A stretch of 64,000 nt of DNA, from positions 4,092,001 through 4,156,000 of the forward strand of contig JAZGTN010000094.1 of NCBI GenBank assembly GCA_037783415.1, read 5' to 3'. The position numbers were made by a program, and so were the translations under genes. Source of the DNA: Leptasterias polaris. Its lineage: Eukaryota; Echinodermata; Asteroidea; Forcipulatida; Asteriidae. A model generated the notes under the pieces. It made no database searches. It worked only from the letters and a program-made list of their open reading frames with translations, and had not been told where the DNA came from. Position 1 is the stretch's first letter; each line of letters opens with the position of its first letter. This document shows, in pieces, positions 13,583 to 42,560 of the stretch.

Positions 13583-14160
13583 CTACCCCCCATGTTTGAC
13601 TCCAAGCAGTGGCAGTTCATTTTCCCAAGAAACTCATAATGCCAGATGCGTGAAGCGCGCCCCACAGCACAGGGAAGAACAGCCACGGCCGGGAAGACAT
13701 CGGTTATTACAGTAGTTGTGTGTGGCGACCTTTAACTGCTTATTTTGATCAATATAGCGCACAGTAAACAACTTGTTTCAGATCCAAACATAATTATCGG
13801 TTACGAAAACTCGATTGAAAACGGGGTGTAGTTTGGCCCCAACCGGGATCCTCTCATATATTGTATGTAGGGCAACTCATGTTAAAGTCGTTATGATTCC
13901 ACAAGCGAGGCTTCATAATGTATGGGTCAAGGGTCAATTCAAGCAAACAAATGTTAAGTTTATAGTGCCCTAATGTTTAAAATTATTCGATCCACACAAT
14001 AAATTGCAATTTTGTAACCAAAGAGGTTTTGTTTAATTCTTCAAATTAATTTCTTCTCATAAATTTGATTTATAACATCTGACAGTCAAATTTGATGTTG
14101 TTTATACTATTTTTTACAAATTGTTTTCTTTCAAAAGGTAACTAGCATGCCCCTTTAAAT
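13583..14160. other. Intron-like sequence, nothing recognised
   Basis: Lies in the candidate intron 12996-14617. No exon, RNA or defined repeat seen. Confidence 0.4.
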
Positions 14161-14162
14161 TA

Positions 14163-18099: not shown

Positions 18100-18332
18100 G
18101 CTAGGGTACTGTGCGCAGTACTCCTTTTAACAACATTTTGTTACCGTCGATTGTACTATTATTAACGCCCCAGGAAAATTCTCACTCCAACAACACAATC
18201 GACAATTTGCTATGATTTTCCGAACAATAGACACAAAATTATGCCTCAACAATTTAAAATAAAAAAGCTGGAAAATTGCTCACTAGATATTCTTCATACG
18301 TTAAAGATACATATTTTTTTTTTTTTTTCTAG

Positions 18333-18413
18333 GTCCAAATTGGAGAAACGATGTCATTAGTCTGCCCTTCTCATAGCGCTATCACTGGAGCCCTGCCGTC
18401 GCATCGTCAGTGA
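18333..18413 (+). CDS. Candidate gene, terminal exon (unknown protein)
   Basis: Strong acceptor: a long T tract then CTAG. Reads VQIGETMSLVCPSHSAIT to GALPSHRQ and a TGA stop at 18411-18413. Phase 0 agrees with the previous donor. No polyadenylation signal was pinned down. Confidence 0.4.
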   Translation, partial: VQIGETMSLVCPSHSAITGALPSHRQ

Positions 18414-18940
18414 GGTAGGTGAGATGTCAGTGGTGGATGTAAATCATCGACTGTTTAACGACACACTGGTTACAGGCGCTGCAGCAAGTGCGCATGTGAA
18501 TCATGAGCAGCGTAACTTCTGCGAGGAGAGTTGTGTGAAAGAATGGTCTAATAGGAATCATAGAATGTTTGCTCATTATTAAACGTGCACATCCGCTGCA
18601 GCGCCTGTAACTAGTGTGCCGTTATCAGTCGTCGATTTACATCCACCATCTGAAAAAGTGATTACACTGACCGCGACTAGAAGTTCACCACACTAGGCTA
18701 TCTGAACTTGAGTCCGATGCGCTACACTGCTCGGTCAATAATTTCATCCAGTGCTTTTGTTATTTTTAGTGATGTTTTACTTGGGCATAGTATTCTTCCT
18801 AGTTAAATCTGATTTTACTAGTTCTTTTTCTGTTTTTGCCTTAGGCCTATCAAAATATCAGTAAGACAATTAAAAAGCCTGTGAAAGTCCATCCCAAATT
18901 TTGATCAGTGCTTCCGCCAAATTTATTGGTCAGACATTGC
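18414..18940. repeat. Inverted-repeat segment and unassigned sequence
   Basis: 'tggtggatgtaaatcatcga' and 'ggcgctgcagc' near 18431-18486 pair loosely with 'gctgcagcgcc' and 'tcgatttacatccacca' near 18595-18651, giving a 220-bp hairpin. The rest is unassigned. Confidence 0.65.
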
Positions 18941-20060
18941 ACCCCATGTTAGTCAACCCTTGCACCCCAAGTTGGTCAGCACTTTCACCCCATGTGTTTG
19001 TCAGCACCCTTAGTACTTTGGTCTTGCCCTTTCACCCCAAGTTGATCAGCCCTTTCACCCCATGTGTTTGTCAACACCCTTAGTACTTTGGTCATGCCCT
19101 TTCACCCCAAGTTGGTCAGCCTTTTCACCCCAAGTTGGTCAGCCCTTTCACCCCATGTGTTTATGAGCACCCTTAGTACTTTGGTCTTGCCCTTTCACCC
19201 TAAGTTGGTCAGCCCTTTCACCCCATGTGTTTAACCCCCTGTGTTTGTCAGCAATCTTAGTACTTTAGTCTTGCCCTTTCTCCCCAAGGGTTTGTCAGCA
19301 CTCTTAGTACTTTGGACTTGCCCTTGCACCCCAAGTTGGTCAGCCCTTTCACCCCAAGGGTTTGTGAGCACCCTTAGTACTTTGGTCTTGCCCTTTCACC
19401 CCAAGTTGGTCAGACCTTTCACCCCATGTGTTTGTCAGCACCCTTAGTACTTTGGTCATCCCTTTCACCTCAAGTTGGTCAGCCCTGTCACCTCAAGTTT
19501 GTCAGCCCTTTCACCCCATGTGTTTGGCAGCACCCTTAGTACTTTGGTCATGCCCTTTCACCCCAAGTTGGTCAGCCCTTTCACCCCAAGTTGGTCAGCC
19601 CTTCCCCCCTGTGTTTGTCAGCAATCTTAGTACTTTAGTCTTGCCCTTTCTCCCCAAGTTGGTCAGCCCTTTGCACCTCATGTGTTTGTCAGCACCCTTA
19701 GTAATTTGGTCTTGTCCTTTCACCCCAAGTTGGTCAGCCTTTTCACCCCAAGTTGGTCAGCCCTTTCACCTCAAGTTGGTCAGCCCTTTCACCCCATGTG
19801 TTTGTCAGCACCCTTAGTACTTTGGTCTTGCCCTTGCACCCCAAGTTGGTCAGCCTTTTCACCCCATGTGATTGTCAGCACCCTTAGTACTTTGGTCTTG
19901 CCCTTGCACCCCAAGAAGTTGGTCAGCCCTTTCACCCCATGTGTTTGTCAGCACCCTTAGTACTTTGATCTTGCCCTTTCACCCCATGTTGGTCAGCCCT
20001 TTCACCCCATGTGTTTGTCAGCACCCTTAGCACTTTGGTCATCCCTTTCACCCCAAGTTG

Positions 20061-20990
20061 CAGCGTTGTCACTACGCCGGTTGGTGCCGGTCGGACCTTC
20101 CGGGACTCGGAGCTACCTGACAGGGACTTAGCCTTGCTAAAGCTTTTACTGACCGGCACTAAATTCGACCAAACTGCTGAATATTAAATTATTTTGTAAT
20201 CAGAAGCCAACAATAAATTCCAGTATTTACAACAAAATACATCGGGTTTTGTTTTAGTATTCATTCCTTACAATATCTGACCAAATTTGCATGTGTCGTA
20301 ATTAATTTTATTTTGTCCCATTCTGTTTGTACCGTATTGTGGCTTTGCGCACAACATTGATGATCACAAAATTTGGCCTGCATGCCGGAGAGACCCAAAA
20401 ATCATGCTACGCGCAGCGTCCACGATAACTAACGATCTTTCTTCAGGGCGCCCGCCTGATCTGCCAAGTAATAAATATGCATAAGGTGACGTCGCGCGGT
20501 AACTTACGTAACTCAACCAATGAACATGCAACTTGTGAAGCTATATGCAACGTCACGGGTGCTTGCATATTCATTAGATGGACAAGTCTCAAGCTACAGT
20601 ATATCGCGCGGCGTCACCTCATACATATTTATGACTTAGCAGATCAGCCGGGTGCCCTGACTTTCTCACGATCAACAGGCAGCAAATCATAAATAAGATG
20701 GCGGCCCCCAAGCACGACGGACTTCAATGTATTTTTTTTACCCAGTTTTTTTTGGCCATTTTCAAACCATATTATCTGGACGAAGGGAAAAAAATAATGT
20801 AGGTTGGAGTAGTATGGGATGTTTATAAGTGGGAAAAATTGATCGTACTTTTAAACTTAGCTGTAAATGGCGACTGTGATGAGACCGAGTTTGGGCTCTG
20901 GACCCCCGGCCATGAGGCGCAATACTCCGCGATACTACGTTCCCGTGCAGAAAATTAGCCGGCACTAAACTTAGGCTAGTGACAACACTG
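20061..20990. mobile_element. Non-autonomous hAT-like element in the satellite (long form)
   Basis: Ends CAGCGTTGTCACTA and TAGTGACAACACTG are inverted repeats with one mismatch. The 8-bp target duplication CCAAGTTG is at 20053-20060 and 20991-20998. It holds a segment related to the 17180-18099 palindrome. Confidence 0.9.
20450..20890 (+). repeat. Partial copy of the 920-bp palindromic element
   Basis: Shares 'ctgatctgccaagta', 'ggtgacgtcgcgcggta', 'atcagccgggtgccctgact', 'aagatggcggcccccaagca' and 'aggttggagtagtatgggat' with 17180-18099. It sits inside the hAT-like element. Confidence 0.85.
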
Positions 20991-22055
20991 CCAAGTTGGC
21001 AGCCCTTTCACCCCAAGTTGGTCAGCCCTTTCACCCCATGTGTTTGTTAGCACCCTTAGTACTTTGGTCATCCCTTTCACCCCATGTGTTTGTCAGCACC
21101 CTTAGTACTTTGGTCAGCCCTTTCACCCTAAGTTGGTCAGCCCTTTCACCCCATGTGTTTGTCAGCACCCCTAGTACTTTAGTCTTGCCCTTTCACCCCA
21201 AGTTGGTCAGCCCTTTCACCCCATGTGTTTGTCAGCACCCTTAGTACTTTGGTCAGCCATTTCACCCCAAGTTGGTCAGCCCTTTAACCCCATGTGTTTG
21301 TGAGCACCCTTAGTACTTTGGTCTTGCCCTTTCACCTCAAGTTGGTAAGCCCTTTCACCCCATGTGTTTGTCAGCACCCTTAGTACTTTGGTCAACCCTT
21401 TCACCTCAAGTTGGTCAGCCCTTTCACCTCAAGTTTGTCAGCCCTTTCACCCCATGTGTTTGTCAGCACCCCATGTGTTTGTCAGCACCCTTAGTACTTT
21501 GGTCAGCCCTTTCACCCTAAGTTGGTCAGCCCTTTCACCCCATGTGTTTGGCAGCACCCTTGGTACTTTGGTCTTGCCCTTTCACCCCAAGTTGGTCAGC
21601 CTTTTCACCCCAAGTTGGTCATCCCTTTCACCCCAAGTTTGTCAGCCCTTTCACCCCATGTGTTTGTCAGCACCCTTAGTATTTTGGTCTTGCCCTTTCA
21701 CCCCAAGTTGGTCAGCCCTCTCACCCCAAGTTGGTCAGCCCTTTCACCCCATGTGTTTGTCAGCACCCTTAGTACTTTGGTCTTGCCCTTTCACCTCAAG
21801 TTGGTAATCCCTTTCACCTCAAGTTGGTCAGCCCTTTCACCCCATGTGTTTGTCAGCACCCTTAGTACTTTGGTCATCCCTTTCACCTCAAGTTGGTCAG
21901 CCCTTTCACCTCAAGTTTGTCAGCCCTTTCACCCCATGTGTTTGTCAGCACCCATAGTACTTTGGTCAGCTCTTTCACCCCAAGTTGGTCAGCCCTTTCA
22001 TCCCATGTGTTTGTCAGCACCCTTAGTACTTTGGTCATCCCTTTCACCTCAAGTG

Positions 22056-22314
22056 TAATGCACGTAAAGAACCCAGTGCACTTATCGAAAAGAGAAGGGG
22101 TTTGCCCCGGTGTTCCTGGTTTGATCGGCTGCATATTGCGCCACAGCACCTTGTAAACCATTACATGGTGCTATGTAAAGAAATAGGCCTCAAAATTCAA
22201 AAAGTAGCTCCACATATATACCTTGCAGGAAAATATTGACTGTTGAAGCGCCTTGAGCGTCACTGAGTGACGGATATGAGCGCTATATAAGAAGCCATTA
22301 TTATTATTATTATT
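22056..22314 (+). mobile_element. SINE/LINE 3' tail inserted in the satellite
   Basis: Contains 'aaagaacccagtgca', 'ttgaagcgccttgagcgtca', 'gagcgctatataagaa' and an (ATT)n end. A related inverse copy is at 54560-54780. Confidence 0.75.
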
Positions 22315-23836
22315 AAGTTGGTCAGCCTTTTCACCCCATGTGTATATCAGCACCCTTAGTACTTTGGTCAGCCCTTTCACCCCAAGTTGGTCAGCCCTTT
22401 CACCCCATGTGTTTGTCAGCACCTTTAATACTTTGGTCTTGTCCTTTCACCACAAGTTGGTCAGCCCTTTCACCCCAAGTTGGTCAGCCCTTTCTCCCCA
22501 AGTTGGTCAGCCCTTTGCACCCCATGTGTTTGTCAGCACCCTTAGTACTTTGGTCAGCCCTTTCACCCCAAGTTGGTCAGCCCTTTCACCTCAAGTTGGT
22601 CAGCCCTTTCACCTCAAGTTGGTCAGCCCTTTCACCCCATGTGTTTGTCAGCACCCTTAGTACTTTGGTCTTGCCCTTGCACCCCAAGTTGGTCAGCCTT
22701 TTCACCCCATGTGATTGTCACCACCCTTAGTACTTTGGTCTTGCCCTTGCACCCCAAGAAGTTGGTCAGCCCTTTCACCCCATGTGTTTGTCAGCACCCT
22801 TAGTACTTTGGTCTTGCCCTTTCACCCCATGTTGGTCAGCCCTTTCACCCCATGTGTTTGTCAGCACCCTTAGTACTTTGGTCTTGCCCTTTCACCCCAA
22901 GTTGGTCAGCCTTTTCACCCCAAATTGGTCAGCCCTTTCACCCCATGTGTTTGTCAGCACCCTTAGTACTTTGGTCATCTCTTTCACCCCATGTTGGTCA
23001 GCCCTTTCACCCCAAGTTGGGTTGGTCTTGCCCTTTCACCCCAAGTTGGTCAGCCCTTTCACCACCTGTGTTTGTCAGCACCCTTAGTATTTTGGTCTTT
23101 CCCTTTCTCCCCAAGTTGGTCAGCCCTCTCAGCTCAAGTTGGTCAACCCTTTCACCCCAAGTTGGTCAACCCTTTCACCCCAAGGGTTTGTCAGCACTCT
23201 TAGTACTTTGGACTTGCCCTTGCACCCCAAGTTGGTCAGCCCTTTCACCCCAAGGGTTTGTCAGCACTCTTAGCACTTTGGTCTTGCCCTTGCACCCCAA
23301 GTTGGTCAGCCCTTTCACCCCATGTGTTTGTCAGCACCCTTAGTACTTTGGTCTTGCCCTTGCACCTCAAGTTGGTCAGCCTTTTCACCCCAAGTTGGTC
23401 AGCCTTTTCACCCCAAGTTGGTCAGCCCTTTCACCCCAATTTGGTCAGCCCTTTCACCCCATGTGTTTGTGAGCACCCTTAGTACTTTGGTCATCCCTTT
23501 CACCCCAAGTTTGTCAGCCCTTTCACCCCATGTGTTTGTGAGCACCCTTAGTACTTTGGTCAGCCCTTTCACCCCAAGTTGGTCAGCCCTTTCACCCCAT
23601 GTGTTTGTCAGCACCTTTAGTACTTTGGTCTTGCCCTTTCACCACAAGCTGGTCAGCCATTTCACCCCAAGTTGGTCAGCCCTTTCACCCCATGTGTTTG
23701 TCAGCACCAATAGTACTTTGGTCTTGCCCTTTCACCCCAAGTTGGTCAGCCCTTTCACCCCATGTGTTTGTCAGCACCCTTAGTACTTTGGTCATCCCTT
23801 TCACCTCAAGTTGGTCATCCCTTTCACCCCAAGTTG

Positions 23837-24081
23837 CAGCGTTGTCACTACGCCGGTTGGTGCCGGTCGGACCTGCCAGGACTCGGAGCTACCTGACTGG
23901 GACTTAGCCTTGCTAAAGCTTTTACTGACCGGCACTAAATTCGACCAAACTGCTGAATATTAAATTATACTTAAACCGAGTTTGGGCTCTGGACCCCCAG
24001 CCATGAGGCGCAATACTCCGCGATACTACGTTCCTGTGCAGAAAATTAGCCGGCACTAAACTTATGCTAGTGACAACACTG
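23837..24081. mobile_element. Non-autonomous hAT-like element (short form)
   Basis: Same ends as 20061-20990 and the same flanking CCAAGTTG (23829-23836, 24082-24089), but only 245 bp. The middle about 690 bp is missing and the remaining ends are nearly identical to the long form. Confidence 0.9.
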
Positions 24082-24189
24082 CCAAGTTGGTCGGCCCTTT
24101 CACCTCAAGTTGGTCAGCCCTTTCACCCCAAGTTGGTCAGCCCTTTCACCACATGTGTTTGTCAGCCGACAAACACATGGGGTGATCAT

Positions 24190-24538
24190 GGGGTGACCGA
24201 TCTTTCTCACATGCTGCCCCATGCCTATGGAACAAATTGCCAGCACTAGTAAAATCATCTGTTTCTTTAACCCAATTTAAAACAAACCTTAAGACACATC
24301 TTTTCAATCAAGTATTTGAGTAAATGGTTTGATTTTTACCGTCAATGTTTTCTTAGATATTGCATTTGTATTGTATTTCTCTACCACATGTTCTGGATTT
24401 CTTCTTAGCTTAGGCTTTAATACGTTTCTATTTTGGTTATTGTACATGTGTATGTTATTGTTTGTATTTAGCACCATGAGCACTTTGATGGATTTGTGCG
24501 CTTTATAAGTTTTCATTATTATTATTATTATTATTATG
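24190..24538 (+). mobile_element. 5'-truncated LINE with ORF2 C-terminus
   Basis: 24201-24323 reads SFSHAAPCLWNKLPALVKSS, then FKTNLKTHLFNQVFE and stop, the typical C-terminal tail of CR1/L2-type LINE proteins (xLWNxLP...FKxxLKTHLF). A 3' region with 'tgcgctttataagtt' and (ATT)n follows. 'atgtgtttgtcag' on both sides could be a target duplication, but it is also satellite sequence. Confidence 0.8.
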
Positions 24539-27439
24539 TGTTTGTCAGCACCCTTAGTACTTTGGTCAGCCCTTTCACCCCTTTCACCCCAAGTTGGTCA
24601 GCCCTTTCACCCCATGTGTTTGGCAGCACCCTTGGTACTTTGGTCTTGCCCTTTCACCCCAAGTTGGTCAGCCCTTTCACCCCAAGTTGGTCAGCCCTTT
24701 CACCCCATGTGTTTGGCAGCACCCTTGGTACTTTGGTCTTGCCCTTTCACCCCAAGTTGGTCAGCCCTTTCATCCCATGTGTTTGTCAGCACCCTTAGTT
24801 CTTTGGTCTTGCCTTTTCTCCCCAAGTTGGTCAGCCCTTTCACCCCATGTGTTTGTGAGCACCCTTAGTACTTTGGTCAGCCCTTTCACCCCAAGTTGGT
24901 CAGCCCTTTCACCCCAAGTTGGTCAGCCCTTTCATCCCATGTGTTTGTCAGCACCCTTAGTACTTTGGTCAGCCCTTTCATCCCAAGTTGGTCAGCCCTT
25001 TCACCCCATGTGTTTGTCAGCACCCTTAGTACTTTGGTCAGCCATTTCACCCCAAGTTGGTCAGCCCTTTCCCCCCATGTGTTTGTGAGCACCCTTAGTA
25101 CTTTGGTCTTGCCCTTTCACCTCAAGTTGGTAAGCCCTTTCACCCCAAGTTGGTCAGCCCTTTCACCCCATGTGTTTGGCAGCACCCTTGGTACTTTGGT
25201 CTTGCCCTTTCACCCCAAGTTGGTAAGCCCTTTCACCCCAAGTTGGTCAGCCCTTTCACCCCATGTGTTTGGCAGCACCCTTGGTACTTTGGTCTTGCCC
25301 TTTCACCCCAAGTTGGTCAGCCCTTTCACCCCAAGTTGGTCAGCCCTTTCACCCCATGTGTTTGGCAGCACCCTTGGTACTTTGGTCTTGCCCTTTCACC
25401 CCAAGTTGGTCAGCCCTTTCACCCCATGTGTTTGGCAGCACCCTTGGTACTTTGGTCTTGCCCTTTCACCCCAAGTTGGTCAGCCCTTTCATCCCATGTG
25501 TTTGTCAGCACCCTTAGTACTTTGGTCAGCCCTTTCATCCCAAGTTGGTCAGCCCTTTCACCCCATGTGTTTGTCAGCACCCTTAGTACTTTGGTCAGCC
25601 ATTTCACCCCAAGTTGGTCAGCCCTTTCCCCCCATGTGTTTGTGAGCACCCTTAGTACTTTGGTCTTGCCCTTTCACCTCAAGTTGGTAAGCCCTTTCAC
25701 CCCAAGTTGGTCAGCCCTTTCACCCCATGTGTTTGGCAGCACCCTTGGTACTTTGGTCTTGCCCTTTCACCCCAAGTTGGTCAGCCCTTTCACCCCAAGT
25801 TGGTCAGCCCTTTCACCCCATGTGTTTGGCAGCACCCTTGGTACTTTGGTCTTGCCCTTTCACCCCAAGTTGGTCAGCCCTTTCATCCCATGTGTTTGTC
25901 AGCACCCTTAGTTCTTTGGTCTTGCCTTTTCTCCCCAAGTTGGTCAGCCCTTTCACCCCATGTGTTTGTGAGCACCCTTAGTACTTTGGTCAGCCCTTTC
26001 ACCCCAAGTTGGTCAGCCCTTTCACCCCAAGTTGGTCAGCCCTTTCATCCCATGTGTTTGTCAGCACCCTTAGTACTTTGGTCAGCCCTTTCATCCCAAG
26101 TTGGTCAGCCCTTTCACCCCATGTGTTTGTCAGCACCCTTAGTACTTTGGTCAGCCATTTCACCCCAAGTTGGTCAGCCCTTTCCCCCCATGTGTTTGTG
26201 AGCACCCTTAGTACTTTGGTCTTGCCCTTTCACCTCAAGTTGGTAAGCCCTTTCACCCCAAGTTGGTCAGCCCTTTCACCCCATGTGTTTGTCAGCACCC
26301 TTAGTACTTTGGTCATCCCTTTCACCTCAAGTTGGTCATCCCTTTCACCCCATGTGTGTGTCAGCACCCCATGTGTGTGTCAGCACCCTTAATACTTTGG
26401 TCTTGCCTTTTCAACCCAAGTTGGTCAGCCTTTTCACCCCAAGTTGGTCAGCCCTTTCACCCCATGTGTTTGTCAGCACCCTTAGTACTTTGGTCTTGCC
26501 CTTTCACCCCAAGTTGGTCATCCCTTTCACCCCATGTGTGTGTCAGCACCCTTAATACTTTGGTCTTGCCTTTTCAACCCAAGTTGGTCAGCCTTTTCAC
26601 CCCAAGTTGGTCAGCCCTTTCACCCCAAGTTGGTCAGCCCTTTCACCCCATGTGTTTGTCAGCACCCTTAGTACTTTGGTCTTGCCCTTTCACCCCAAGT
26701 TGGTCAGCCCTTTCACCCCATGTGTTTGTCAGCACCCTTAGTACTTTGGTCTTGCCCTTTCACCCCAAGTTGGTCAGCCCTTTCACCCCATGTGTTTGTC
26801 AGCACCCTTAGTACTTTGGTCATCCCTTTCACCTCAAGTTGGTCATCCCTTTCACCCCATGTGTGTGTCAGCACCCTTAATACTTTGGTCTTGCCTTTTC
26901 AACCCAAGTTGGTCAGCCTTTTCACCCCAAGTTGGTCAGCCTTTTCACCCCAAGTTGGTCAGCCCTTTCACCCCATGTGTTTGTCAGCACCCTTAGTACT
27001 TTGGTCTTGCCCTTTCACCCCAAGTTGGTCATCCCTTTCACCCCATGTGTGTGTCAGCACCCTTAATACTTTGGTCTTGCCTTTTCAACCCAAGTTGGTC
27101 AGCCTTTTCACCCCAAGTTGGTCAGCCCTTTCACCCCATGTGTTTGTCAGCACCCTTAGTACTTTGGTCTTGCCCTTTCACCCCAAGTTGGTCAGCCCTT
27201 TCACCCCAAGTTTGTCAGCCCTTTCACCCCATGTGTTTGTCAGCACCCTTAGTACTTTGGTCTTGCCCTTTCACCCCAAGTTGGTCAGCCCTCTCACCTC
27301 AAGTTGGTCAGCCCTTTCACCCCATGTGTTTGTAAGCACCAATAGTACTTTGGTCTTGCCCTTGCACCCCAAGTTGGTCAGCCCTTTCACCCCTTGTGTT
27401 GGTCAGCCCTTGCATCCCAAGTTGGTCAGCCCTTTGACC

Positions 27440-28150
27440 CACCATGATGGTCAGCCCTTGAAGTCAATAAGATTGTCCTATGTTTTTTCCCCAAGAGTTA
27501 AATGTATCCTGACTTTTCTTTCTGGATTGTTAGCCTTCAGATGCAAGGTCAACCCCACACAGCCTCCATCGTCAGCATCTGTGAGGAGTCAGCCTTCGGG
27601 GCAGTCTTCAAGCCCTGAATGACCGTCATGGACCATCAATATGAGGACCCCGTCATTTAAGTGGTCGGTGAAGGTTACCAGGGTAAGATAACACTGGATA
27701 ACATACACAGCATACGTACCAGCCGAGGAGAACGTAGAGGCACTGCTGGAATATGACAATCAAGCCTCAGGTAGGTCATCAAGGTTCAAATGTCACGGTT
27801 CATTTCTGTCCACACAAAGCAAAACCAAATAACTGCACAATCTTCACTGAAACTGCAACCTTTAGGCAAACACCACAAAAATTCAGTTCAAGACCAAATT
27901 TCATAAAGTAATACATTTCTTTGCTAAGCAAAAAAGTAAGTGGGGCACCAGTGGCAAAAATGTCAACTGTAAGGAATGTTAACTGGTTGGTTTCCTGTTT
28001 CTGCTAAGCAAAGGTTGCTTGTGCTTAGCATGTTTTGTGCTTACAGGCTTTATGAAGTTGGGTCAATTCTCATGAAGCTGGTAAGCAGAAGCTAGCGGCC
28101 CTAAGCACAGGTTCAATTTCATTACATTACCATGAGCAAAGAAAAAGGGC
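27440..28150 (+). repeat. Segmental duplicate of HYDIN exon plus flanking introns
   Basis: Aligns by eye with the minus strand of about 62640-61855. Shared blocks run from the last satellite unit through 'agtcaataagatt', the pseudo-exon, 'ccaccac/ggggcaccagtggca' and 'gcttacaggcttta', to 'ggttcaattt'. Similarity fades near 28150. The two copies are in inverted orientation, about 34 kb apart. Confidence 0.88.
27541..27770 (+). pseudogene. Decayed copy of a HYDIN exon
   Basis: The sequence matches the HYDIN exon at 62253-62525 (minus), with many substitutions, an internal deletion of about 40 bases and an early stop. Both splice dinucleotides survive (CCTTCAG before, CAG|GTAGGTCATCAAGG after). 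Intron sequence continues to match on both sides. It is therefore a DNA-level duplicate, not a processed mRNA copy. It cannot encode the original peptide. Confidence 0.93.
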
Positions 28151-28735
28151 CTTAAGTTTTGTGTTGTGTTGGTAGTTTGGAGTTCAATTTATAATGGGTT
28201 CATCCAGGATTTATATCATTTTGGAAGAGGTGGTGACTCTGAAAAGATGCAGAAAGTTTGTCCTGCAGGTTTTGACTAGTTGCCTTCTCAATTGTCTTCC
28301 AATCTCACAAAGTTCAAAACTTCAACAGATCAGCAGTACATCAATCCCATCATGCATCACTACATCCTGAATAGGTACAAGCTCATCAGCCCATCTCAGC
28401 CGTCTTGGATGAGACCAGAAGACCAAATATTTCTAACTTCCATTGTTGCTCTTATCTCGTTTCAGCTGAACATGCAAGAAACTCATGAATTTGTCTACCT
28501 CCTGGTGCATTGAAGCTTGGAGGTAGAAATAGACATCCATGATTGAAGCAACCTAGATTGAAGATGTTGTCACTGCTCATGTAATGAACTCATCGCACGT
28601 CCTGAGTGGAGTTGTACACACTAAGCTAGCAGAGTACCGGTATTTGATGGTTAGTATTCTTGATTACCAGTCAATTTAAACCTGTTTGTGTAACTGAAGG
28701 GTTTGTCCAAAGGGAAGTCATTGTTTTTTTGTGGC
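28150..28735. other. Unassigned sequence
   Basis: Beyond the HYDIN duplicate. Holds only the weak open frame at 28280-28513. Confidence 0.4.
28280..28513 (+). other. Open frame of unknown status
   Basis: A 77-codon frame includes LTKFKTSTDQQYINPIMHHY and SWMRPEDQIFLTS. It starts after a stop and has no clear acceptor. A GTACAAG donor-like site sits inside it. It may be a former exon. There is no family match. Confidence 0.2.
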
Positions 28736-29215
28736 GTGTCATTGCTGAGCGGTCTACTGCATCGGACTCAAGTACTGATGGTTGTTATCAGGGTGTGGGT
28801 GCCATTCCCGGTCATGACACTTGTGTCCTTGAGCACGGCACTTCACCATAATTGCTTTCCTTAACCCAGGTGTATAAATGGGAACTGAGACATCCCCTAA
28901 AGTTGATCCATCGAAGTACTATTGGTTGAATTATCAGGGTGTGGGTGCCATTCCCTGTCATGACACTTGTGTCCTTGAGCACGGCACTTAACCATAATTG
29001 CTTTCCTTAACCCAGATGTATAAATGGGAACTGAGACATCCCCTAAAGTTGATCCATCGAAGTACTATTGGTTGAATTATCAGGGTGTGGGTGCCATTCC
29101 TGGTCATGACACTTGTGTCCTTGAGCACGGCACTTAACCATAATTGCTTTCCTTAACCCAGATGTATAAATGGGAACTGAGACATCCCCTAAAGTTGATC
29201 CAATTCTCCTGCTGC
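28735..29215 (+). mobile_element. tRNA-headed SINE with body repeated every 146 bp
   Basis: The head 'tgctgagcggtctactgcat' leads to 'gtgtgggtgccattcc' at 28794, 28940 and 29086. Each is followed by 'gtcatgacacttgtgtcctt' and 'cccagrtgtataaatgggaa'. Spacing is exactly 146 bp between anchors. Confidence 0.85.
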
Positions 29216-29295: not shown

Positions 29296-29483
29296 GTTGC
29301 CCTTACCCTTACAAACTATCAGGCCTCTTGCTTTTTGCAAGAGCTTAGTGTACTATGTTGTGAATAACAGTTGGAATGGTGTCCTATAAACGTTATGGTT
29401 GATGTTTCTTTAAAATGTTCTGATCCCCTCTGGTATATTCCACAGAGCTTGTTGTCCCCCCCCCCCCCCCCCCATCTAGCTGG

Positions 29484-29591
29484 ATGGAACGTCTTGCTCC
29501 CCAGAACCATGAGGCAATCCAGAAGAAGATCAAACGCTTCAAGACTGGGGAGATGATGCTGGCTGGGTTGCCTGATGTACCAGCCAAATGA
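29484..29591 (+). CDS. Exon-like segment ending in a stop, unknown protein
   Basis: Just after a poly-C tract and CATCTAG, an open frame reads MERLAPQNHEAIQKKIKRFK then TGEMMLAGLPDVPAK and TGA. The charged, protein-like composition suggests a real or former terminal exon. It has no recognised family. Confidence 0.25.
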   Translation: MERLAPQNHEAIQKKIKRFKTGEMMLAGLPDVPAK

Positions 29592-29689
29592 CAACAGTGA
29601 GTTACCAGTACCTTAAAGGGATCCTATACTCTTGGTTTTTCGGAAGAGTAAATTCATTCTGTAATTCCTCCAGGTTTCAATAAACACAG

Positions 29690-30134
29690 CAGTGTTGTAG
29701 TACTCATACTCAGTACTTGTACTTGAGTAGTAATCAAGAACCGTTTTGATCGTACTTGGCAAGCAAAGTACTCATACTAGAAGTCCATACTTGATACTCG
29801 ACTGCAAAATAATATGTACTCGAAAGTCATGTACTCGATACTCGATTGAAAATGCACTGAGACTCTGAGCTAGAAATTAGTATATTAACAAATCAGTAAA
29901 TGTTTTTTTACCTCATTTTGCAGTATTTTGTTTATAAAGTACTTTTATTCGTACTCAGAGATCCAAGTACTTGGTACTTGGCTGTTTGTCTCAGTAGTCA
30001 GATATCATAACTTGGTACTGGGACACTTGAACTTTGTACTCGATGGCTCATGTTCTCAAACTCAAGTACTACTCAACAATCCTAATACTCAACATTTCTT
30101 TAAACTCGGCTGAAAAGTACTGGACTACAAAACC
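29690..30134. mobile_element. Degenerate hAT-like element (AGTACT-rich)
   Basis: Left end CAGTGTTGTAGTACTCATAC resembles the hAT-like ends above. The right end is decayed (agtactggactacaaaacc). Imperfect 8-bp flanks AAACACAG/AAACACAC. The interior is rich in 'gtactcgatact'-type repeats. Confidence 0.6.
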
Positions 30135-30651: not shown

Positions 30652-31645
30652 GTAAGTGTAAAGTCTGCCGTAGAAAGGCCAGCTGTTTACAGGGTTTGTC
30701 CCTGACCTTTCCAATAATACTTGGTTCTTATATAGAGCACTTATTCAAGTAGCTAGATCAAGGCACTTTACAGCCCTTGCTGTGTTGTTGGCTAACACCC
30801 TCTGCACCTTTAATTGGTCAGCCCTTGCACTTCATTTCTTGATCAGCAGCTCTTGTACCACAAGTTTGTAAGCCCTTGCTGTGTTGGTCAGCACCCTTAG
30901 CACGGGTAGTTATTGTAGGATCGTTTGGGAAACCTCAATTTGCTTCCCCTCACCAAGACACCAAAAAAACCTCAGAATGACAAAAATACCCAACAAAATA
31001 GCTTTAGAAACGCCTACTGGCTTCTTGATATGTCTAAGAATGGATGCAATATCAGGCATTTTATTTTACTCACGTTCATGTTTTGTGCTCCAAATTGACA
31101 TTTTTTTAAGTCAATCTGAGAAACCTTCCATCACGAGCCACATCTTGCATGTCTCGACAGATGCCCTGCCTCAACCGCGTAGTCGTAACGGTTGAGGCAG
31201 AGCACCCGTCAGGAAACTCTGTGGCATCTGTGATTGCAAAGCCTACATGGTCCCTTCTGAAATGTCCCTGACCTCCAGAACAAGCTGACTATGGGTCAGT
31301 TTTTGAGGCTGGGGACGCAATATCTATAATTATCTCTGATGAGTTTTGCGACACGAAAGAGGTACCTGACATTAAGTTTGTGTGGACATGCCCTCTTCCG
31401 CTGTTACTACAAGTTTTTCTGTCATGCCGCGCCTACCCTCAAATATTCGTCAATCTATGGGACCCAAGTGGTTTCTACCAGTACACAGGATATGCCACCA
31501 ATGATCCCTAAGAAAGGATAAGAATTTATTTGATTTGTTTATCAAGTAAAAGACAATGGTGGCTGTAAAAACTAAAAACTGTGAATTTGCACATTGCAAT
31601 TTTGTTCTTGTCTAACATTTGTTATCCTTAAACTTTACCTTTCAG
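30652..31645. other. Intron-like sequence with satellite remnant and small hairpin
   Basis: 30775-30900 contains degenerate satellite-like 'ttggtcagcccttgcac' and 'gtcagcacccttagcac'. 'tgcctcaaccg...cggttgaggca' (31168-31199) forms a short perfect stem. No gene seen. Confidence 0.6.
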
Positions 31646-31743
31646 ATGCCAGAGACAAAGCTAGTAGTTACCAGAAATCAAGTGCAAATGGAATCATCTC
31701 TACTGACATCTTGAATGCTACAGGGTATAAGGGAGAGCAACAT
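31646..31743 (+). CDS. Exon-like segment, copy 1 of a tandem duplication
   Basis: Acceptor CCTTTCAG and donor CAT|GTATGT flank ARDKASSYQKSSANGIISTD and ILNATGYKGEQH. A similar segment with flanking intron recurs about 550 bases downstream (32194). Phase matches the segment ending at 30651. Confidence 0.35.
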
Positions 31744-32193
31744 GTATGTAAACTTCAGTATCATCAAAACATCTCAGCTGTTCATCTAGCAATCATGAAT
31801 GAACAACCAAGCCATCTGTTGTCTGCAACTGTAAGATATTGTAGATGTGTTTATAGTTCGATGTTTTGATGTTTTCTGTTATCATCGAATAGTGGGCTGT
31901 TTTTGCAGCACTATACATTTAACGTCTTGTAAATAAGTACACCATTGCAAGCCCACCCCCCTCCCCCCAGAATATTTCACCCATACCTTCCCTTAAAGAT
32001 ATTAGAAAGAAGAAAACTAATGTTAGTATCTTTAAAAGAAAAATACATGTTGAACTTTCTCACAGACTGGCTATGTCTAAGGTTAAAAAATCAAGTGAAA
32101 AACAATGATACTGTAAAAAGAAAAAACTGGGATTTTCCCCATTGCAATTTTTGGCTTGTGTTAACAGTTATGTCTGTAAACTTGACCTTTCAG

Positions 32194-32292
32194 TTGCCAG
32201 AGATGAAGCTAACAGTTCCCTGAAATCAAGTGCAAATGGAATCATCTATACTGACACCTTGAAGGCTACATGGTACATGTATAAAGCAATAT
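32194..32292 (+). pseudogene. Tandem duplicate of the exon-like segment (diverged)
   Basis: Reads ARDEANSSLKSSANGIIYTD and TLKATWYMYKAI between CCTTTCAG and a GTATGT donor. It is one base longer than copy 1, so the donor phase differs. The frame itself is open, so it could be an alternative exon, but decay is more likely. Confidence 0.3.
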
Positions 32293-32519
32293 GTATGTAA
32301 ACATCAGCATCTTCAAGTCATCTCAGCTGTTCATCAATAGCAATCATGAAAGAACAACCGAGCCATCTGCTGTTTTTAATTGTAAGATAATGTAGATGTG
32401 TTAGTTTGATGTTTTAATGTTTTCTGTTATCATCTTATTATGGGCTGTTATTGCAGCACTATACAGTTAACCTCTTGTAAATAAGTACACCATTGCAAGC
32501 AAGCACATATGCGTTTTTG

Positions 32520-33030
32520 GAGCTATTTAGTTGCAGACTTTAGAGCCTTGGTGGTGCCTCGATCCGATATGCTGTGCCTCGATCCGTTATGTTGTGCCTC
32601 GATCCGAGATTCGGAATAAATGGTGGAATAAACACGGAAAATTCCGAATAATTAAAGGGACCTGGACACTTGCACGTGGCATGTGGGGTCCTACTCCTGG
32701 CCGGGGTAACAGTCGGTGGTTGATCCTAAAGATGCTCCGAGCTCCACCGCGGCGTTGGATGGTTCCGGTGTGATCACACATGGTTGACCGAACAGGAGTA
32801 GTCCCTAGTCTTTGGCCGTGGGGGCTAGTGGACCGCGTTACTACAGTAGGGGACTGCCTTAGGGACTGGTTCGCCAACCTTGGGGTGGCGTACCGGACCC
32901 TTCCTAATCAGGAGGTGCAATGGCCCTAGCGATCTGGAATGCGTGTTGGGGCTGGTATCCTGGGACCTGCACGTGGTGGCCCTGCTTTGACTAAGCTTAC
33001 CAGGATGATCTCAGCTTAAAAAGCTGACTG
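32520..33030. other. GC-rich unassigned block
   Basis: Begins with three copies of 'gtgcctcgatccg' at about 21-bp spacing, then about 400 bp clearly richer in GC than its surroundings. There is no long frame and no convincing structural RNA match. Confidence 0.5.
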
Positions 33031-33189
33031 AATTAAAATGCTTGCGATGGTGTATTTATAAATTGTTAGTTATTTTTCAATATAAGATTATGAGTCCAAT
33101 TTGAGATGACTGTTGATCAATCACTTCATATTCCTAAACCAACTCTAATCAAGATCTCCTTGTTCTGCATTACTATTTCAGATGTTTAA

Positions 33190-33660
33190 CTTTATCATCA
33201 GTGGTATATACAGTTACTTTCATGTGTTAGTTTTTGACCCAAAATGAGTATAAGATTGTTTGTAATTTTTTTAATAAATGGAGTACAGAATCGAGGCTGT
33301 TGCCGATGGGTTGGAGTGTGAGTCAAGGGGACATAAAGTCTCCTTGCATTGAAAATTTTGTGGCCAGCATGAGGTTTTTTTGTCTGGTATAAATATGGGA
33401 CTCTAATGCCTTTCCACAAAACCCTTGAAAATACGCTGGAATGTGTTCATATTATGCATTTATTCCTCTGTAAATCCTTGACCCAAAATAAGTATGAGAT
33501 TGTCTTTAATTTTGTTAATAAATAGGATTTTTTGAAGAACGGAATCGAGGCTGCTGCCGATGGGTTAGAATGTGATTTGGGCGGACTTAAAGTCTCTGTG
33601 TGTTGACAATGTTGCGACCAGTATGAGAGTTTTCATCTCATATAAAAAGAGGAAATTCTT
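33190..33660. repeat. Tandem pair of a 250-bp repeat
   Basis: 'gacccaaaatgagtataaga' / 'gacccaaaataagtatgaga' and 'cgaggctgttgccgatgggt' / 'cgaggctgctgccgatgggt' are about 250 bp apart. A third diverged copy is near 35575-35700. Confidence 0.8.
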
Positions 33661-36360
33661 GTTTTCCAGAATTGGACTTTTAAAAATGCACTGGAATGTT
33701 TTACTCCTCCATTGTTCACAGACCAAAATAAACATACACAGCTGTATGCGTATGTAAAAAGAGTAGGACATAAAGGCACAGAATTGTATAACTATAAGTA
33801 TGTGAGATTAAAAACAAATAAATAAATTTTGAACCAAAATACAAAACAAAATTATTGAGAAGGCTGTATAGACTCTGGGAGAAATCAATTTTCCTGTATC
33901 CCAAAAATTACAACGTTGGGGGATCAAACAAGGAGTTAAAAATAATCCAATGTTTTTATGTAAACCATTCATATTATTATTTTGTATTTAATGATTTCTT
34001 GGTAAGGCTTTGTTGACAACAAGGTTGGTTATATAAAACAACTGATGATTTATTTACTAAAACTCAATTAAGTTAGGCCTACAAGTATCATTGGTATTTA
34101 ATCAGAAAAATTTACAAAAAATAGTTAAACATAAATGATAATACATAAAAATTATTTACACTACACTATAAAAATGAATCCATTCACATCGCCATGTATT
34201 ACTGATGTACGTCCTTACAACAACAAAATTCAATATAAAAGTTTTAGTTTTGTGCATGTTGGTTCATGAATTTGAAAATAACTATATGATTAAGTGTCAC
34301 CTACTAACATTCCATGATTAAATAAGATTTTGAATCCGAATTCATCATCTTTGTTTAAAGGCATTAAACATTGAACATATCTTACAACGATATAATATCA
34401 AAATTGTTATCTCCCAAATACATAAATGATAAATCAAAAACAAAAAAAAAGTTTTACAAGTTTTTAACAAATCCTTTCATTGTGTCACTTCAGTTAAATT
34501 AATGATGACATTGTTAAATATTTATAAATTGACCAACTTTTATAAGAAATATATACCAATTATATCAACATTAATCTAACTCTAAGAATTGTTTGCTTCA
34601 AATTTGAATAACTATACATTTTACAATACTAATTAAAATGAAACATGTTTAGGTTTTTAGAACTAACTTTAAACATTGATATGAAAAATAACAATAATTT
34701 ACTATGGGCTTTAAAAACCTAGAAATAGTTTTACTGTATACATTATAACAATCCAATGACATCAATTCAAATCTATATGTTGGAAAATGGGGTCTGCTTC
34801 AAGGCCTATGAAGACTGCCCATTTTTATTACATACAATGACAGTACAACATAACAAATTAATAGTAAATATATGTATGTTATTTATTTACAATTATTTGG
34901 ACAGGTTACACCATTAAGATGTGTGTGTGGTGGGGGGGGGGGGGTTGAAGCCCTCTTACATAAGCAACTCTATATGTACCTGATGTAGATGAACACTTTT
35001 TGACAACTAGGGCCTATGATTTTTATCATTAACAAAACAATTACAGTTAAACAAATTATACATTTACATTAACAAAAACAGTTACTTTACACAAACTTTA
35101 TACAGTGACTCACACCCTCTTAATTTCAGCTACATTGAATAAGTTAGACCTACACGTACATAGACATGCAGATTTACCATTTTTTGTTAAAAGGCCTAGT
35201 AATAAAACTAATAAAACTACTACTAATGAATTACTTTTCTAAATTCTCAGTGAAACAAATACGTCTAATTCTCAACAGTCGAAACTAGCCGATACATATA
35301 TTCTGTAAATATTTTTCTTTCAAGATAGTTGATTATTTGTATTATTATTATTATTAAGCCTATAATATCTATTGTATTACAACCTTGCAGCTTGATTTAG
35401 ACTCAAACCTCAAGTGTTTTTTTAATTTTGATTACCTATTAAAATAAATATCAAACATAAATGAAATATTTACCATAAACTTTTTCAGTCAAGAACTTTC
35501 TTTGAAAAAAAAAAAAAATGTTGGAAATTAACTGTACAATATTATCTATGTTATTTTATGCACCACTAACCAGAATTTGAAATTTTGTCGTTGTTAATAT
35601 GATGAGTTGGAGTGTGAGTCGAGCAGACATAAAGTCATCGCGCGTTGAAGATAATGTGACCAATATCAGAGTTGCCGTTTTGTATAGGACCCTGGTATGT
35701 GTTATTATCTTATTTCTCAATAATTCATAGACATTTGACAACTTTTTTCAAAGTGATAAGAGTATGACAATACATGTTTATCAAGCCTATATATATAGAA
35801 AACTAGTTGGGGAGATGGCCTTAGCTTTTGATCCACACTGGACCTTCGTCAGAGGTATTAACAAGCACAAACAAAAACATATATTTCTAATTTTCTAATT
35901 TGTTTCAACTAACCTCAGAAAAAATATGATTATAGAGGAGGGAAACTAACTTTCCTGTAACCAAAAGAGTTGTGTGGTGACACAAGGAATTAATAATAAC
36001 AAATATATAAGAACTATTAAATAAATAAAATATAAAGATTATTTGTAGCTAGGAGAAAACATATTATTTTGGTTAACTCATTACAGATCAATTAAATTTC
36101 ACCAATAAAAACTGCAAATTAATATCTTTTGGAGTTACTAAACAAAAATAAAACATACAATAAATGGTTCAGTCAGACATTGTCTTTGACGCCTGTCCCC
36201 CTTTAACATCAGTTTTCAATGTATGCACCACATTTTAATTAACATTTAGAAAGTTATGCAATAATTATAAATTACTATGAAGCATTTAATTAACTTATTA
36301 AATACTATGAAACTGATAAGGGAAACTATGGGCTACGACTTACAAGTATATTTAAATCTC
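33660..36360. other. AT-rich region, no gene seen
   Basis: Very AT-rich with a poly-G tract near 34931 and an (ATT)n tract near 35338. There is no supported exon. It may be intronic or untranslated sequence of a gene not identified here. Confidence 0.5.
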
Positions 36361-36364
36361 ATGT

Positions 36365-37140
36365 GACGTCGATGAAATAAACAAATGTGTTTTGGTTTTC
36401 GTAAACAAAGATTGAGCGTTAATTTGCAGTGTATACGTGAAAAAGGCAGCCTCGCTTCAGAGGTATAACAGATCAGAATGGTCCCACCATTTACTTGGTA
36501 GTAATATAATTGAAGTAAACTTTAATATTATAAAACCACTTTGTAATTTTTAAGAAATATTACTTAGCTTTAATTATTAACATAAAATATGTGTGTTGGA
36601 GTGCAATCAAGAATGACTAACACGAGAGGCAGCTAGATAGTGGTAGCGCCCTCTTATTTACTTTGCGATGATAGCCAATCATTATGAAGAATCTTTGTGA
36701 AAATGAAAAGTTAAAATATCGGCCATGACTTGTACGTTCGTAAAGATCTTGACTCTTTTTGAGTAACATCGATGAAATAAACAATCGTGTATCGATTTTG
36801 TAAACGGGCGCTGCAGAGATTGATCATCGATGCATCGATTAATCCATGAAAAAGCAGCCTCGCTTTAGAATAGTATCATTTAATACTGGAACTGTGATAA
36901 TAAAATAAAGAAATAATTATCTCAGTTGCAATAAATTTAATTTAATCAGTGTGTTCAAACATTAGATTGATACCCAATTCTACTTGGTAGTAGGTAAATA
37001 AATTTAATTTAATGTAAACTTTGTTATTATAAAAACCACTTTATCACACCTAAGAAATTTAATTTGATTGTTAATTTATTAAAGATGCGTGTGTCTGAGT
37101 GCAATTTTATTGAGGGCGGCTAGAAACTTTAAAACAAACA
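36365..37140. repeat. Diverged tandem duplication of about 400 bp
   Basis: 'tgatgaaataaacaa', 'gcagcctcgctt' and 'ttataaa(a)accactt' recur in order about 400-480 bp apart (36370 and following; 36770 and following). Confidence 0.7.
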
Positions 37141-37624
37141 CATGATTGCTATAAATATTAGAGTGTAATAGTTAATAGAAAGCACTTACATTGCAAGCAC
37201 TGTGTTTTACAAGTGTTTTCATTTTACTACAGTTGAAATTCTTTTTAAAACCACACAATGATTTGAATCTGTTTTACAGGGAATAATGTCGCAACTAAAG
37301 TCAACTAGAGACAATAATTATGCATTTTAGTTTATCTTAATACTTAAAGGTGTATTACCTAATTTCTTAATTAATTTTTAGCGTAAACACATCTTGTAAT
37401 TATTTTTGAACTATCCATCCTATGGTTTATACATTAGTTCCGAGCAGTTATTGTCAAGCGGTGATTTGTCGCAGTGGGCTAGCTCACAGCTAAAACCCTC
37501 TATAGGGATAAATGTTTGTAATCTCATCTCAAGACAGGAATTGGCAGTATTACTGTACAAAACCCCTCGCTAATTTACCAGTAAATTATATATATATATT
37601 TGTTTATTCTTGTAAATTGTAATT

Positions 37625-38885
37625 GAATGAATACATGTACGCTTGTGTTATTTTAAAAGAAATTTTAACAATGCCTTGAAGGAATAAATTGACACGGGTA
37701 AAAAAAAAAATATCTTGTTATGTGTGATAAAGTTTCATTAAATTTCTCTGCACGCTTGTTTTTTTTAAAAGAAATTTTAACAATGCCATAAAGGAATAAA
37801 TGTACGCGGGTAAAAAAAGGTCTTGTTATCTGACCTTACGTTTCATTAAATTTCTCTGCACGCTTGTGTTTTTTTTAAAGACATATTTAACAATGCCTTA
37901 AAGGAATAAATGTACGCGGGTAAAAAAAAGTCTTGTTATCTGACCTTACGTTTCATTAAATTTCTCTGCACGCTTGTTTTTTTTAAATGAAATTTTAACA
38001 ATGCCTTAAAGGAATAAATGTACGCGGGTAAAAAAAAGTCTTGTTATCTGACCTTACGTTTCATAAAATTTCTCTGCACGCTTGTTTTTTTTAAAAGAAA
38101 TTTTAACAATGCCTTAAAGGAATAAATGTACGCGGGTAAAAAAAAGTCTTGTTATCTGACCTTACGTTTCATAACATTTCTCTGCACGCTTGTTTTTTTT
38201 AAAAGAAATTTTAACAATGCCTTAAAGGAATAAATGTACGCGGGTAAAAAAAAGTCTTGTTATCTGACCTTACGTTTCATAAATTTCTCTGCACGCTTGT
38301 GTTTTTTAAAAGAAATTTTAACAATGCCATAAAGGAATAAATGTACGCGGGTAAAAAAAGGTCTTGTTATCTGACCTTACGTTTCATTAAATTTCTCTGC
38401 ACGCTTGTGTTTTTTTTAAAGACATATTTAACAATGCCTTAAAGGAATAAATGTACGCGGGTAAAAAAAAGTCTTGTTATCTGACCTTACGTTTCATAAA
38501 ATTTCTCTGCACGCTTGTTTTTTTTTAAAGAAATTTTAACAATGCCTTAAAGGAATAAATGTACGCGGGTAAAAAAAAGTCTTGTTATCTGACCTTACGT
38601 TTCATAAAATTTCTCTGCACGCTTGTTTTTTTTTAAAGAAATTTTAACAATGCCTTAAAGGAATAAATGTACGCGGGTAAAAAAAAGTCTTGTTATCTGA
38701 CCTTACGTTTCATAAATTTCTCTGCACGCTTGTGTTTTTTAAAAGAAATTTTAACAATGCCTTAAAGGAATGTACGCGGGTAAAAAAAAGTCTTGTTATC
38801 TGACCTAACGTTTCATTAAATTTCTCTGCACGCTTGTTTTTTTTAAAAGAAATTTTAACAATGTATTGAATAAGTATTTGGCATG
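37625..38885. repeat. 108-bp tandem array with a 5-unit higher-order period
   Basis: Twelve occurrences of 'cgcttgt' from about 37640 to 38831 at 104-113 bp spacing. The unit contains 'tttaacaatgccttaaagga', 'gtacgcgggtaaaaaaa' and 'ttatctgaccttacgtttca'. Variants such as 'aaagacatatttaac' (37876, 38417) recur about 541 bp apart. Confidence 0.95.
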
Positions 38886-39865
38886 GTTGAAAAAAAGTCT
38901 TGTTATGTGGTAAGTATTGTTATGTGTTTTACGGAAACTTTAACATTGTTAATTTTTTACTTGCAAAAGACTGAGCACAATTCTATTCAAGAAGGGTGTT
39001 TCTTCTTTTATTATTTTCTTGCAACTTCAATGGCTTTTGGTGCAGGGTATAGGCTCAAATCAGATCTCTATGTCTTCCTAAATACTTGTAACCATAACAC
39101 AAAGTAAGGGGAATGAACAAATTTCTTGCTACATGTATCATTTTATTTGATAACTCCACATAAACAATATAATTCCAACATTACTGGTATCAGAGCATTA
39201 TTTTTAATTTCAAATTAAATAAGTCTAAAGAAATAAAAACTTAAAATCATTGGAAGAATTGATATTTTCTGCACTTCCTGTACACATTTCTTTTTGAAGA
39301 CTGTCTGATTTATTAGAAGCTAAGCTAGTGAAACTTCTTCATTAATTGGGCATGTTTTATCACAATCACATTTAATGTGCAAAGATTGAAGGCTTTCAAA
39401 GTTTTGGCCAATAAGCACCCCAAGTTAACGGTAGTCTTGAGACTGTTGTCTAGCAAAGTTGGTTAGTGTACAACAAAAGAAACAATTGGGGCTCAAGACA
39501 ATTAATTCAATCTATTCAAAAAACAATTTCAACTTAGAAAAAAAAAGTCAAAAGGAATAGAAAGGCAGCTTTAAAGTACAACTGCACTAGCCTTTTAATA
39601 ATAAAAGACCAATAACAAACTTTTTGTTCAATGGTTTTAGCGAGTTTGATTTGGGGGTAGAACCTTCATATTACATAATTGTTTGAAAGAAAGTTTTTAT
39701 TCAAAAAGATCTCATAATTTCAGAGTATGAATTTATCGCAAGTCAAGTTGAACCCAGTCAAAAGGTTCTGTCAATTTCTGGGCTATTATAATATTATAAG
39801 GGGTGAGAAACTCATGTCCAAAACCAATTTTGGGAGATAGTTATTTTGTTTTTTCATAAAATGTC
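38886..39865. other. AT-rich, no gene seen
   Basis: No supported exon. A short plus-strand frame at 38883-39107 has low-complexity composition and is not called. Confidence 0.5.
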
Positions 39866-39867
39866 AC

Positions 39868-39887
39868 CCCCCCCCCCCCCCCCCCCC
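39868..39887. repeat. Poly-C tract
   Basis: About 20 consecutive C, part of the window-wide set of G/C homopolymers. Confidence 0.9.
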
Positions 39888-40117
39888 GTATAATCGCCTC
39901 CTTGGTCCCCAGCCGGGTAGCAGAACAAATCGAAACCTTGGAGGACCTCCCAAAATAGCTTTGAACCCCAACGAACCACTGTTACACTACAGAGAATGGG
40001 GGTGCAGACTCAAGGATGAATTTCCAAGATTTGCACTCGCATGTCACCCTCACTTGTCAGAAGTGATCTGACGACCCTTGCAAAATCACCATTATCACTA
40101 TCAAACTAGGAACTCAC

Positions 40118-40217
40118 CATCACGCTTTTGTGGTAGTTGTGTCGTGTCCTTGGAACTCGGGGAAAAACGTGAACTTCGATGAAGAGTACAGCGCGGAGAC
40201 GTGTTGACAGCAACCAT
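40118..40217 (-). CDS. Possible first coding exon, unknown protein
   Basis: ATG at 40217 opens 33 codons (MVAVNTSPRCTLHRSSRFSP, then SKDTTQLPQKRD) ending at a consensus donor G|GTGAGT, phase 1. A TCATGTGAC motif (M-box/E-box-like) lies about 35 bases upstream. No following exon was recognised in the AT-rich sequence to the left. Confidence 0.38.
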
Positions 40218-40489
40218 GTTTGTGTTTATTATGATCTGCTCGTGTCACATGATCAAACAACACGGCATTAAACTCATTTGAATAACAAAGCAGTTTCGTT
40301 CTATTTGAAGAATCATCATTTTGGTTGGTCGTGGACAGGTTTCTTGCATCTAAGTTACAACCATATAAAAAAATGTCTCAAGTGAATTGCGGCATGACAT
40401 GTAGCTTCAAATTGCAGAGACAAAAAACTAAAGAGCAAAATTTGTATTGGGGTGCATCTATTTCCAATTCCTTGGTGGTATTCTCTGTT

Positions 40490-42530: not shown

Positions 42531-42560
42531 ATTGAATTGAATTGAAAATTGAATTGATGC
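42518..42560. repeat. (ATTGA)n microsatellite
   Basis: About six ATTGA units followed by an imperfect extension. Confidence 0.9.

Follow-up and report, generated by a model that had tools for sequence, protein, structure and literature searches.

How did a decayed exon of the cilia gene HYDIN come to lie beside a giant satellite, on the strand opposite to an open copy of the same exon? Both are found in the window, which is the whole 64,000-nucleotide stretch of Leptasterias polaris DNA analysed here (C94:4092001-4156000, part of a 630-Mb genome in 334 contigs). An earlier note on this DNA had read the arrangement as an inverted segmental duplication at the DNA level, in which the exon was carried along from its source at 61855-62640. 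The features on which our own reading rests are collected in Table 1; coordinates are those of the window unless a contig is named, and the same numbering is continued beyond the window where needed.

Table 1. Features of the window that bear on the origin of the decayed HYDIN exon. M, dispersed element; T, high-copy repeat; C240 and C141, other contigs.
Feature	Position	Strand	Basis
Outer left arm; without matches outside the two arms, except for ~120 bp that are dispersed	12833..14158	+	
Left-arm stretch on the far side of the satellite; complete in no place but the two arms, parts of the first ~350 bp recurring elsewhere	18313..18816	+	
Giant 23-bp-based satellite with ~70-bp higher-order units; origin in the HYDIN intron satellite, some interruptions by other sequence	18926..27459	+	
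HYDIN intron, stretch from satellite to exon	27460..27540	+	alignment
Decayed HYDIN exon shortened from 273 to 230 nt, with splice sites preserved	27541..27770	+	alignment, frame reading, HYDIN match of counterpart
HYDIN intron 3' of the exon, outside the core of M	27771..27914	+	alignment
Core of M, with many other places in the genome	27915..28062	+	edges from 20 loci
Tail adjoining M, common to HYDIN introns and to places where the tail abuts T without HYDIN	28063..28140	+	
Start of T, abutting the HYDIN-derived piece; 27460-28769 89% identical to the right arm	28144..28769	+	
Inner left arm; inverted match to 69276-68453 (beyond the window)	29360..30061	+	
Small satellite patch of the arm type, adjoining T; similar patch in C141	30771..30903	+	
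Copy of a 3' part of HYDIN with the sequence downstream of it, located between the inverted arms; identity to C240 mostly 90-99%	31220..62956	-	
HYDIN exon with open frame in the window's copy (9ijj aa 3589-3661)	62253..62525	-	PDB match, open frame
Intron satellite of the window's HYDIN, its start a few bases from the 5' splice site	62613..62864	-	
Truncated upstream HYDIN exon, where the homology to the HYDIN of C240 ends	62865..62956	-	translated search

The decayed exon is real and lies where it had been placed. When 27431-28140 (plus strand) is aligned locally with 62641-61864, taken as reverse complement, the score is 755, whereas 200 shuffles of the letters reach 32 at most, with a mean of 22. 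In blastn the exon copy is 75% identical to the HYDIN of the window over 1048 columns, part of the satellite being counted in. The decayed exon measures 230 nt (27541-27770) as against 273 nt in the window's HYDIN (62525-62253), both have kept the acceptor CAG and the donor GTAGGT, and six stops appear in the former when it is read in the HYDIN frame. The two exons differ by codon position 13, 6 and 10 times. The intact counterpart corresponds to residues 3589-3661 of HYDIN (PDB 9ijj, 9ijj_4G; E = 2.5e-15) and the exons next to it were also matched to HYDIN. A processed (retro)pseudogene is ruled out, as intron sequence and both splice sites remain on both sides. The claim that the flanking introns were copied as well holds in a narrower form: HYDIN-specific sequence is present on both sides, about 80-86 bp at the 5' side and 118-145 bp at the 3' side, and the latter figure is as small as this because some 148 bp (27915-28062) of the apparent match in the 3' intron form the core of a dispersed element (M) and are not specific to HYDIN.

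The giant satellite has its origin in the intron repeat of HYDIN itself. That a satellite stands on the same (5') side of the exon at both places, as the earlier note had pointed out, is so because the satellite is the HYDIN intron there. In the HYDIN of contig C240 and in that of the window the 23-bp repeat starts a few bases past the 5' splice site and stops about 86 bp ahead of the next exon. The arrays range from 0.25 kb in the window's HYDIN through about 1.65 kb in C240 to at least 4.4 kb in C24, and in two HYDIN copies (L004 and L010) 300-350 bp of other sequence precede the array. The consensus pattern of the satellite has 1811 matches genome-wide, and the 100 matches listed lie at the HYDIN loci of C5 (7), C24 (47) and C67 (46). 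The pattern of the higher-order unit of the giant array, in turn, has 73 matches genome-wide, and 73/73 fall inside the array of the window. The repeat is not confined to HYDIN, however: patches of it beside T at 30771-30903 and in C141 show that the satellite also travelled with T.

A search of the genome with 27460-28140 (a 681-bp query; 42 rows, the best 40 of 1890 candidates scored) revealed the exon at ten places among the matches listed, namely the decayed copy of the window (L001), a second decayed copy (L002) and eight HYDIN-type copies (L003-L010, L005 being the window's own). A further 31 of the 42 rows represent the dispersed element of ~148 bp alone, and one is a second piece of L010. 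Among the matches listed the closest relative of the decayed exon copy is L002 (C94:4165028-4165695, minus strand; 89% over the query), which lies beyond the window and has the orientation of the window's HYDIN. The eight HYDIN-type copies are 75-76% identical to the query, and in BLAST comparisons with the satellite counted in (73-75%) the HYDIN of the window is no closer than the other seven. The stretch 61855-62640 is thus not borne out as the source, since L002 is closer and seven other HYDIN-type copies are equally distant.

Moreover, the two decayed copies have decay in common. They share a 14-nt and a 30-nt deletion in the exon and a deletion of 11 columns in the intron, and they are grouped in the tree with a support of 100/100 (the row of L010, being without the M core, is misaligned downstream, and its branch length is meaningless there). 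Summed from the alignment of the tree, 43/655 sites differ between the two decayed copies, 98/666 between the window's decayed copy and its HYDIN, and 15/748 between the latter and the HYDIN of C240. The 43 differences argue against an assembly duplicate. The array of L002 is 0.9 kb long and has a spacing unlike that of the giant array.

The surroundings of the two decayed copies form inverted arms. A comparison of positions 1-31000 with 64001-80000 of C94 in window coordinates, with tandem repeats masked, gave 15 inverted matches (6010 bp) versus 5 direct ones (730 bp), and none in the reversed, uncomplemented control; 11 of the 15 inverted matches are part of one colinear chain. Several pieces of the arms are dispersed repeats, and colinear low-copy matches in opposite orientation, as expected of an inverted duplication, are also present. 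Because 12833-14158 (best 40 of 768 candidates) and 18313-18816 (best 40 of 76 candidates) are found at full length only in the arms, the arm appears to reach at least from 12.8 to 28.8 kb, and colinear matches go on to 30.06 kb. Between the arms sits the partial HYDIN block (31.2-62.96 kb). A segmental duplication in the strict sense covers 1 kb or more at an identity of 90% or more. The HYDIN block of the window falls within this definition when compared to C240, whereas the decayed arms, with 89.1% over 1354 columns for 27460-28769 and a mean of 84.1% along the chain, stay below it; they are an older, diverged duplication. Judged from these colinear inverted arms together with the deletions common to both decayed copies, it is most likely that the fragment left HYDIN and decayed first, and that the inverted duplication was a later, separate event. 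Of the DNA-level inverted segmental duplication proposed earlier, the copying as DNA, the inverted duplication and the joint transport of exon and satellite thus stand, whereas the inversion is not the event by which the exon was copied.

The HYDIN copy of the window is itself truncated and is not the parent, because its homology to C240 goes no further than 62956, a position within the exon that precedes the satellite intron. A break exactly in the satellite was considered and is ruled out, as the translated search found the next exon beyond it. The block of 33.8-62.86 kb matches C240:60001-91197, mostly at 90-99% (for example 97.7% for 51017-57641 and 99.3% for 58005-60975), and leftward the homology can be followed to about 31.2 kb. 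When the other 43 kb of the contig were compared with C240:60-150 kb, L002 was the only match besides dispersed-looking ones of 100-340 bp. Many open frames in C240:93-149 kb are HYDIN-like by eye and the frame at 147.7 kb was matched in PDB, and the HYDIN of C240 is presumably complete.

An early exon of HYDIN (aa 325-393) was found once, at C240:147686-147940, whereas a 3' exon (aa about 3958-4078) has nine loci, at seven of which it is uninterrupted and at two of which it is split and contains stops. The HYDIN loci are distributed over C240 (two), C67 (three), C24, C5, C271 and C94. Since the early exon occurs once and the late exon nine times, the HYDIN block of the window and C240 are taken as paralogues and not as alleles, and the idea that all HYDIN loci are alleles or haplotype duplicates is disfavoured; single pairs, such as L008/L009 (97%) and C94/C240 (mostly 90-99%), could be alleles. 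The 273-nt exon is open in five of the eight HYDIN-type copies and frameshifted in L004, L008 and L009. These copies show few differences among themselves, though the differences are not confined to third codon positions (0, 3 and 1 by position in L003), so the constraint on them may be relaxed too. For annotation this is a warning that nine HYDIN loci in the assembly do not equal nine HYDIN genes.

Sequence downstream of the window's HYDIN (31220-33800) is found at 13 other places at 89-97%. Among these are contigs C244 and C259, in which the exon searches gave no HYDIN exon, so the duplication family is larger than HYDIN. C240 itself holds a second HYDIN copy (L048, C240:1215818-1217144), which contains two copies of the exon preceding the satellite intron; this partial tandem duplication adjoins the satellite.

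Several other repeats were observed in and around the locus. Positions 1323-8156 comprise four direct tandem units of ~1.7 kb (97.6-98.3% identical), and a separate 108-bp satellite of about 11 copies with 94% matches occupies 37639-38863. About 363 bp of the window's HYDIN (57641-58014) are missing at C240:86364/86365 and have relatives of 96-98% at 14161-14505 and, just beyond the window, at 67953-68335 in window coordinates; this is probably a young mobile element. An inverted pair at 49411-49627 and 51042-51261 (89.5%) overlaps two tRNA-like Rfam matches and looks like tRNA-derived repeats inside the HYDIN copy. The end of the contig (C94:4197164-4199042) is a near-perfect tandem array in 106-bp steps, with 99.4-99.6% identity among the matches listed, and could be the reason that the contig stops there.

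The junctions provide a clue to the way in which the piece was copied. HYDIN homology stops at 28140 in both decayed copies, and T, a high-copy repeat (42 rows, the best 40 of 332 candidates scored), begins at 28144. The joint between the tail of M and T also exists without the HYDIN exon, at three relatives of T (twice in C5 and once in C3, there over ~35 tail columns only); the exon is absent from ~200 bp of flank at these three, and none of them is among the exon matches listed. The right junction therefore falls within or at the margin of sequence common to both partners, which is what an exchange mediated by repeats should produce. Within M itself, the edges of which were taken from 20 loci picked for matching its core, most of the HYDIN-specific changes are absent from the decayed copies. 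These states may represent later changes in HYDIN, in which case this pattern would be expected. Over the tail the decayed copy is as near to L010, from which it differs at 3/47 sites, as to the T-linked copies, from which it differs at 3/47 sites plus 2 gap columns. That M is a chimeric element in the decayed copies is at most suggested by these patterns. Leftward, a 57-bp repeat-like match is found in the same orientation near the edge of the satellite in both arms and in L010, with a similar stretch in L004; here the HYDIN homology may end in the satellite or at this match, or it may run slightly further, unless that is due to chance. The translated search with the C240 frames recognised no further HYDIN exon on either side of the decayed copies, and gave short matches of 15-75 residues in the arms that we take for dispersed repeats.

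The alternatives have to be weighed against this evidence. A direct copy of 61855-62640, made in a single inverted segmental duplication of the neighbouring HYDIN, would be in line with the clear alignment, the shared contig, the opposite strand and the distance of about 34 kb. It is nevertheless very improbable, considering that the window's HYDIN is recent (15/748 from C240) while the decayed copy is at 98/666 from it, that the closest relative of the decayed copy lies beyond the window in direct orientation to this HYDIN, and that the translated search recognised no further HYDIN exon in the vicinity of the decayed copies. If, on the other hand, a mobile element such as a Helitron or Helentron had captured the exon with the satellite and spread them, a right junction at the start of the high-copy T would be natural, and satellite-like arrays have indeed been described in oyster Helentrons (PMC7492417). 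Yet such an element should leave many copies with common ends, and among the matches listed there are two copies of the unit, on one contig, in an inverted arm that includes low-copy sequence. The three T-linked relatives lack the exon in ~200 bp of flank, and no Pfam domain was found in five ORFs, two (overlapping) of which lie in T. Capture by an element is thus improbable.

A further alternative is the survival in place of an old, once longer HYDIN paralogue, into an intron of which T was inserted. The splice sites are kept, the divergence exceeds that among the other copies and T could well be an intron insertion, but the M-tails linked to T occur without HYDIN and the translated search recognised no further HYDIN exon on either side, which makes this origin unlikely. 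A broader proposal is that the intron satellite of HYDIN is a recurrent site of breakage or recombination, which sheds 5'-truncated copies and exon fragments, each of them seeding a satellite specific to its locus. In favour of this, the break in the window's HYDIN is 92 bp away from the array, those of the decayed pieces fall within their own arrays or next to them, and L048 has its partial tandem duplication right by the array. However, L003, L004, L006 and L010 continue through the upstream exon, and L007-L009 were followed only to the array, and we regard the proposal as doubtful. If it were true, the birth of new satellites would be tied to the break-up of a single gene.

The explanation that we consider best, and likely to be correct, begins with ectopic recombination or a template switch at repeats and continues with decay, an inverted duplication and expansion of the array. 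An ancestral piece of HYDIN, consisting of the intronic satellite, one 273-nt exon and the start of the next intron, would have been copied as DNA to another place. Copying as DNA agrees with the retained introns and splice sites, the identical right junction in both copies and the repeats at both edges of the piece. The route would have been ectopic recombination, or a template switch during replication, between repeats, one exchange having presumably taken place within the satellite or next to it, and the other within or at the margin of M, which is found both in the intron of HYDIN and, elsewhere, next to T. The copied piece would then have decayed, after which a region of at least about 12.8-28.8 kb would have been duplicated in inverted orientation on the same contig to give the two decayed copies. 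From then on the satellite would have followed its own course in either arm, leading to 8.5 kb and a ~70-bp higher-order unit here, and to about 0.9 kb with another spacing in the second arm. Separately and more recently, 3' parts of HYDIN appear to have been duplicated several times, and one of these copies lies between the arms. The order in this scheme, with the sampled 3' HYDIN copies spreading last, is deduced from the divergence and from the common deletions.

The rearrangement is genuine but of an ordinary kind, and no new mechanism is needed. What is unusual is the clean record of the parent intron, the carried exon, the common decay and the private expansion to 8.5 kb. The locus thereby offers an order for the steps by which an intron repeat, together with the exon next to it, left its gene and expanded into a large satellite of its own: the intron of origin has been identified, the initial decay is seen in two copies, and a single array underwent the later expansion.

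Human HYDIN2, the nearest case known, is here joined by an independent instance in which HYDIN was duplicated repeatedly and incompletely. In a literature search on HYDIN with segmental duplication or echinoderm, of incomplete coverage, the HYDIN duplications recognised were those of human HYDIN/HYDIN2. HYDIN2 is described as an incomplete duplication of 364 kb with 79 internal exons (PMC5345166), and like it the copies described here represent an incomplete DNA-level duplication of HYDIN, introns included, to another place. In contrast to that duplication, the early exon is found here at one locus and the late exon at C240 and eight further loci, and in addition there are two decayed fragments of one exon. 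Tandem repeats and Alu elements have been described at the breakpoints of duplications and copy number variants (PMC4090240), and the moved piece likewise has a tandem repeat at one end and dispersed repeats at the other; the difference is that one old event is deduced here from sequence, instead of from population breakpoints. As in the oyster Helentrons described in PMC7492417, tandem repeats adjoin sequence of a repeat element. Unlike those elements, the unit in the window has two copies among the matches listed, and its array is the intron repeat of the gene from which the exon came.
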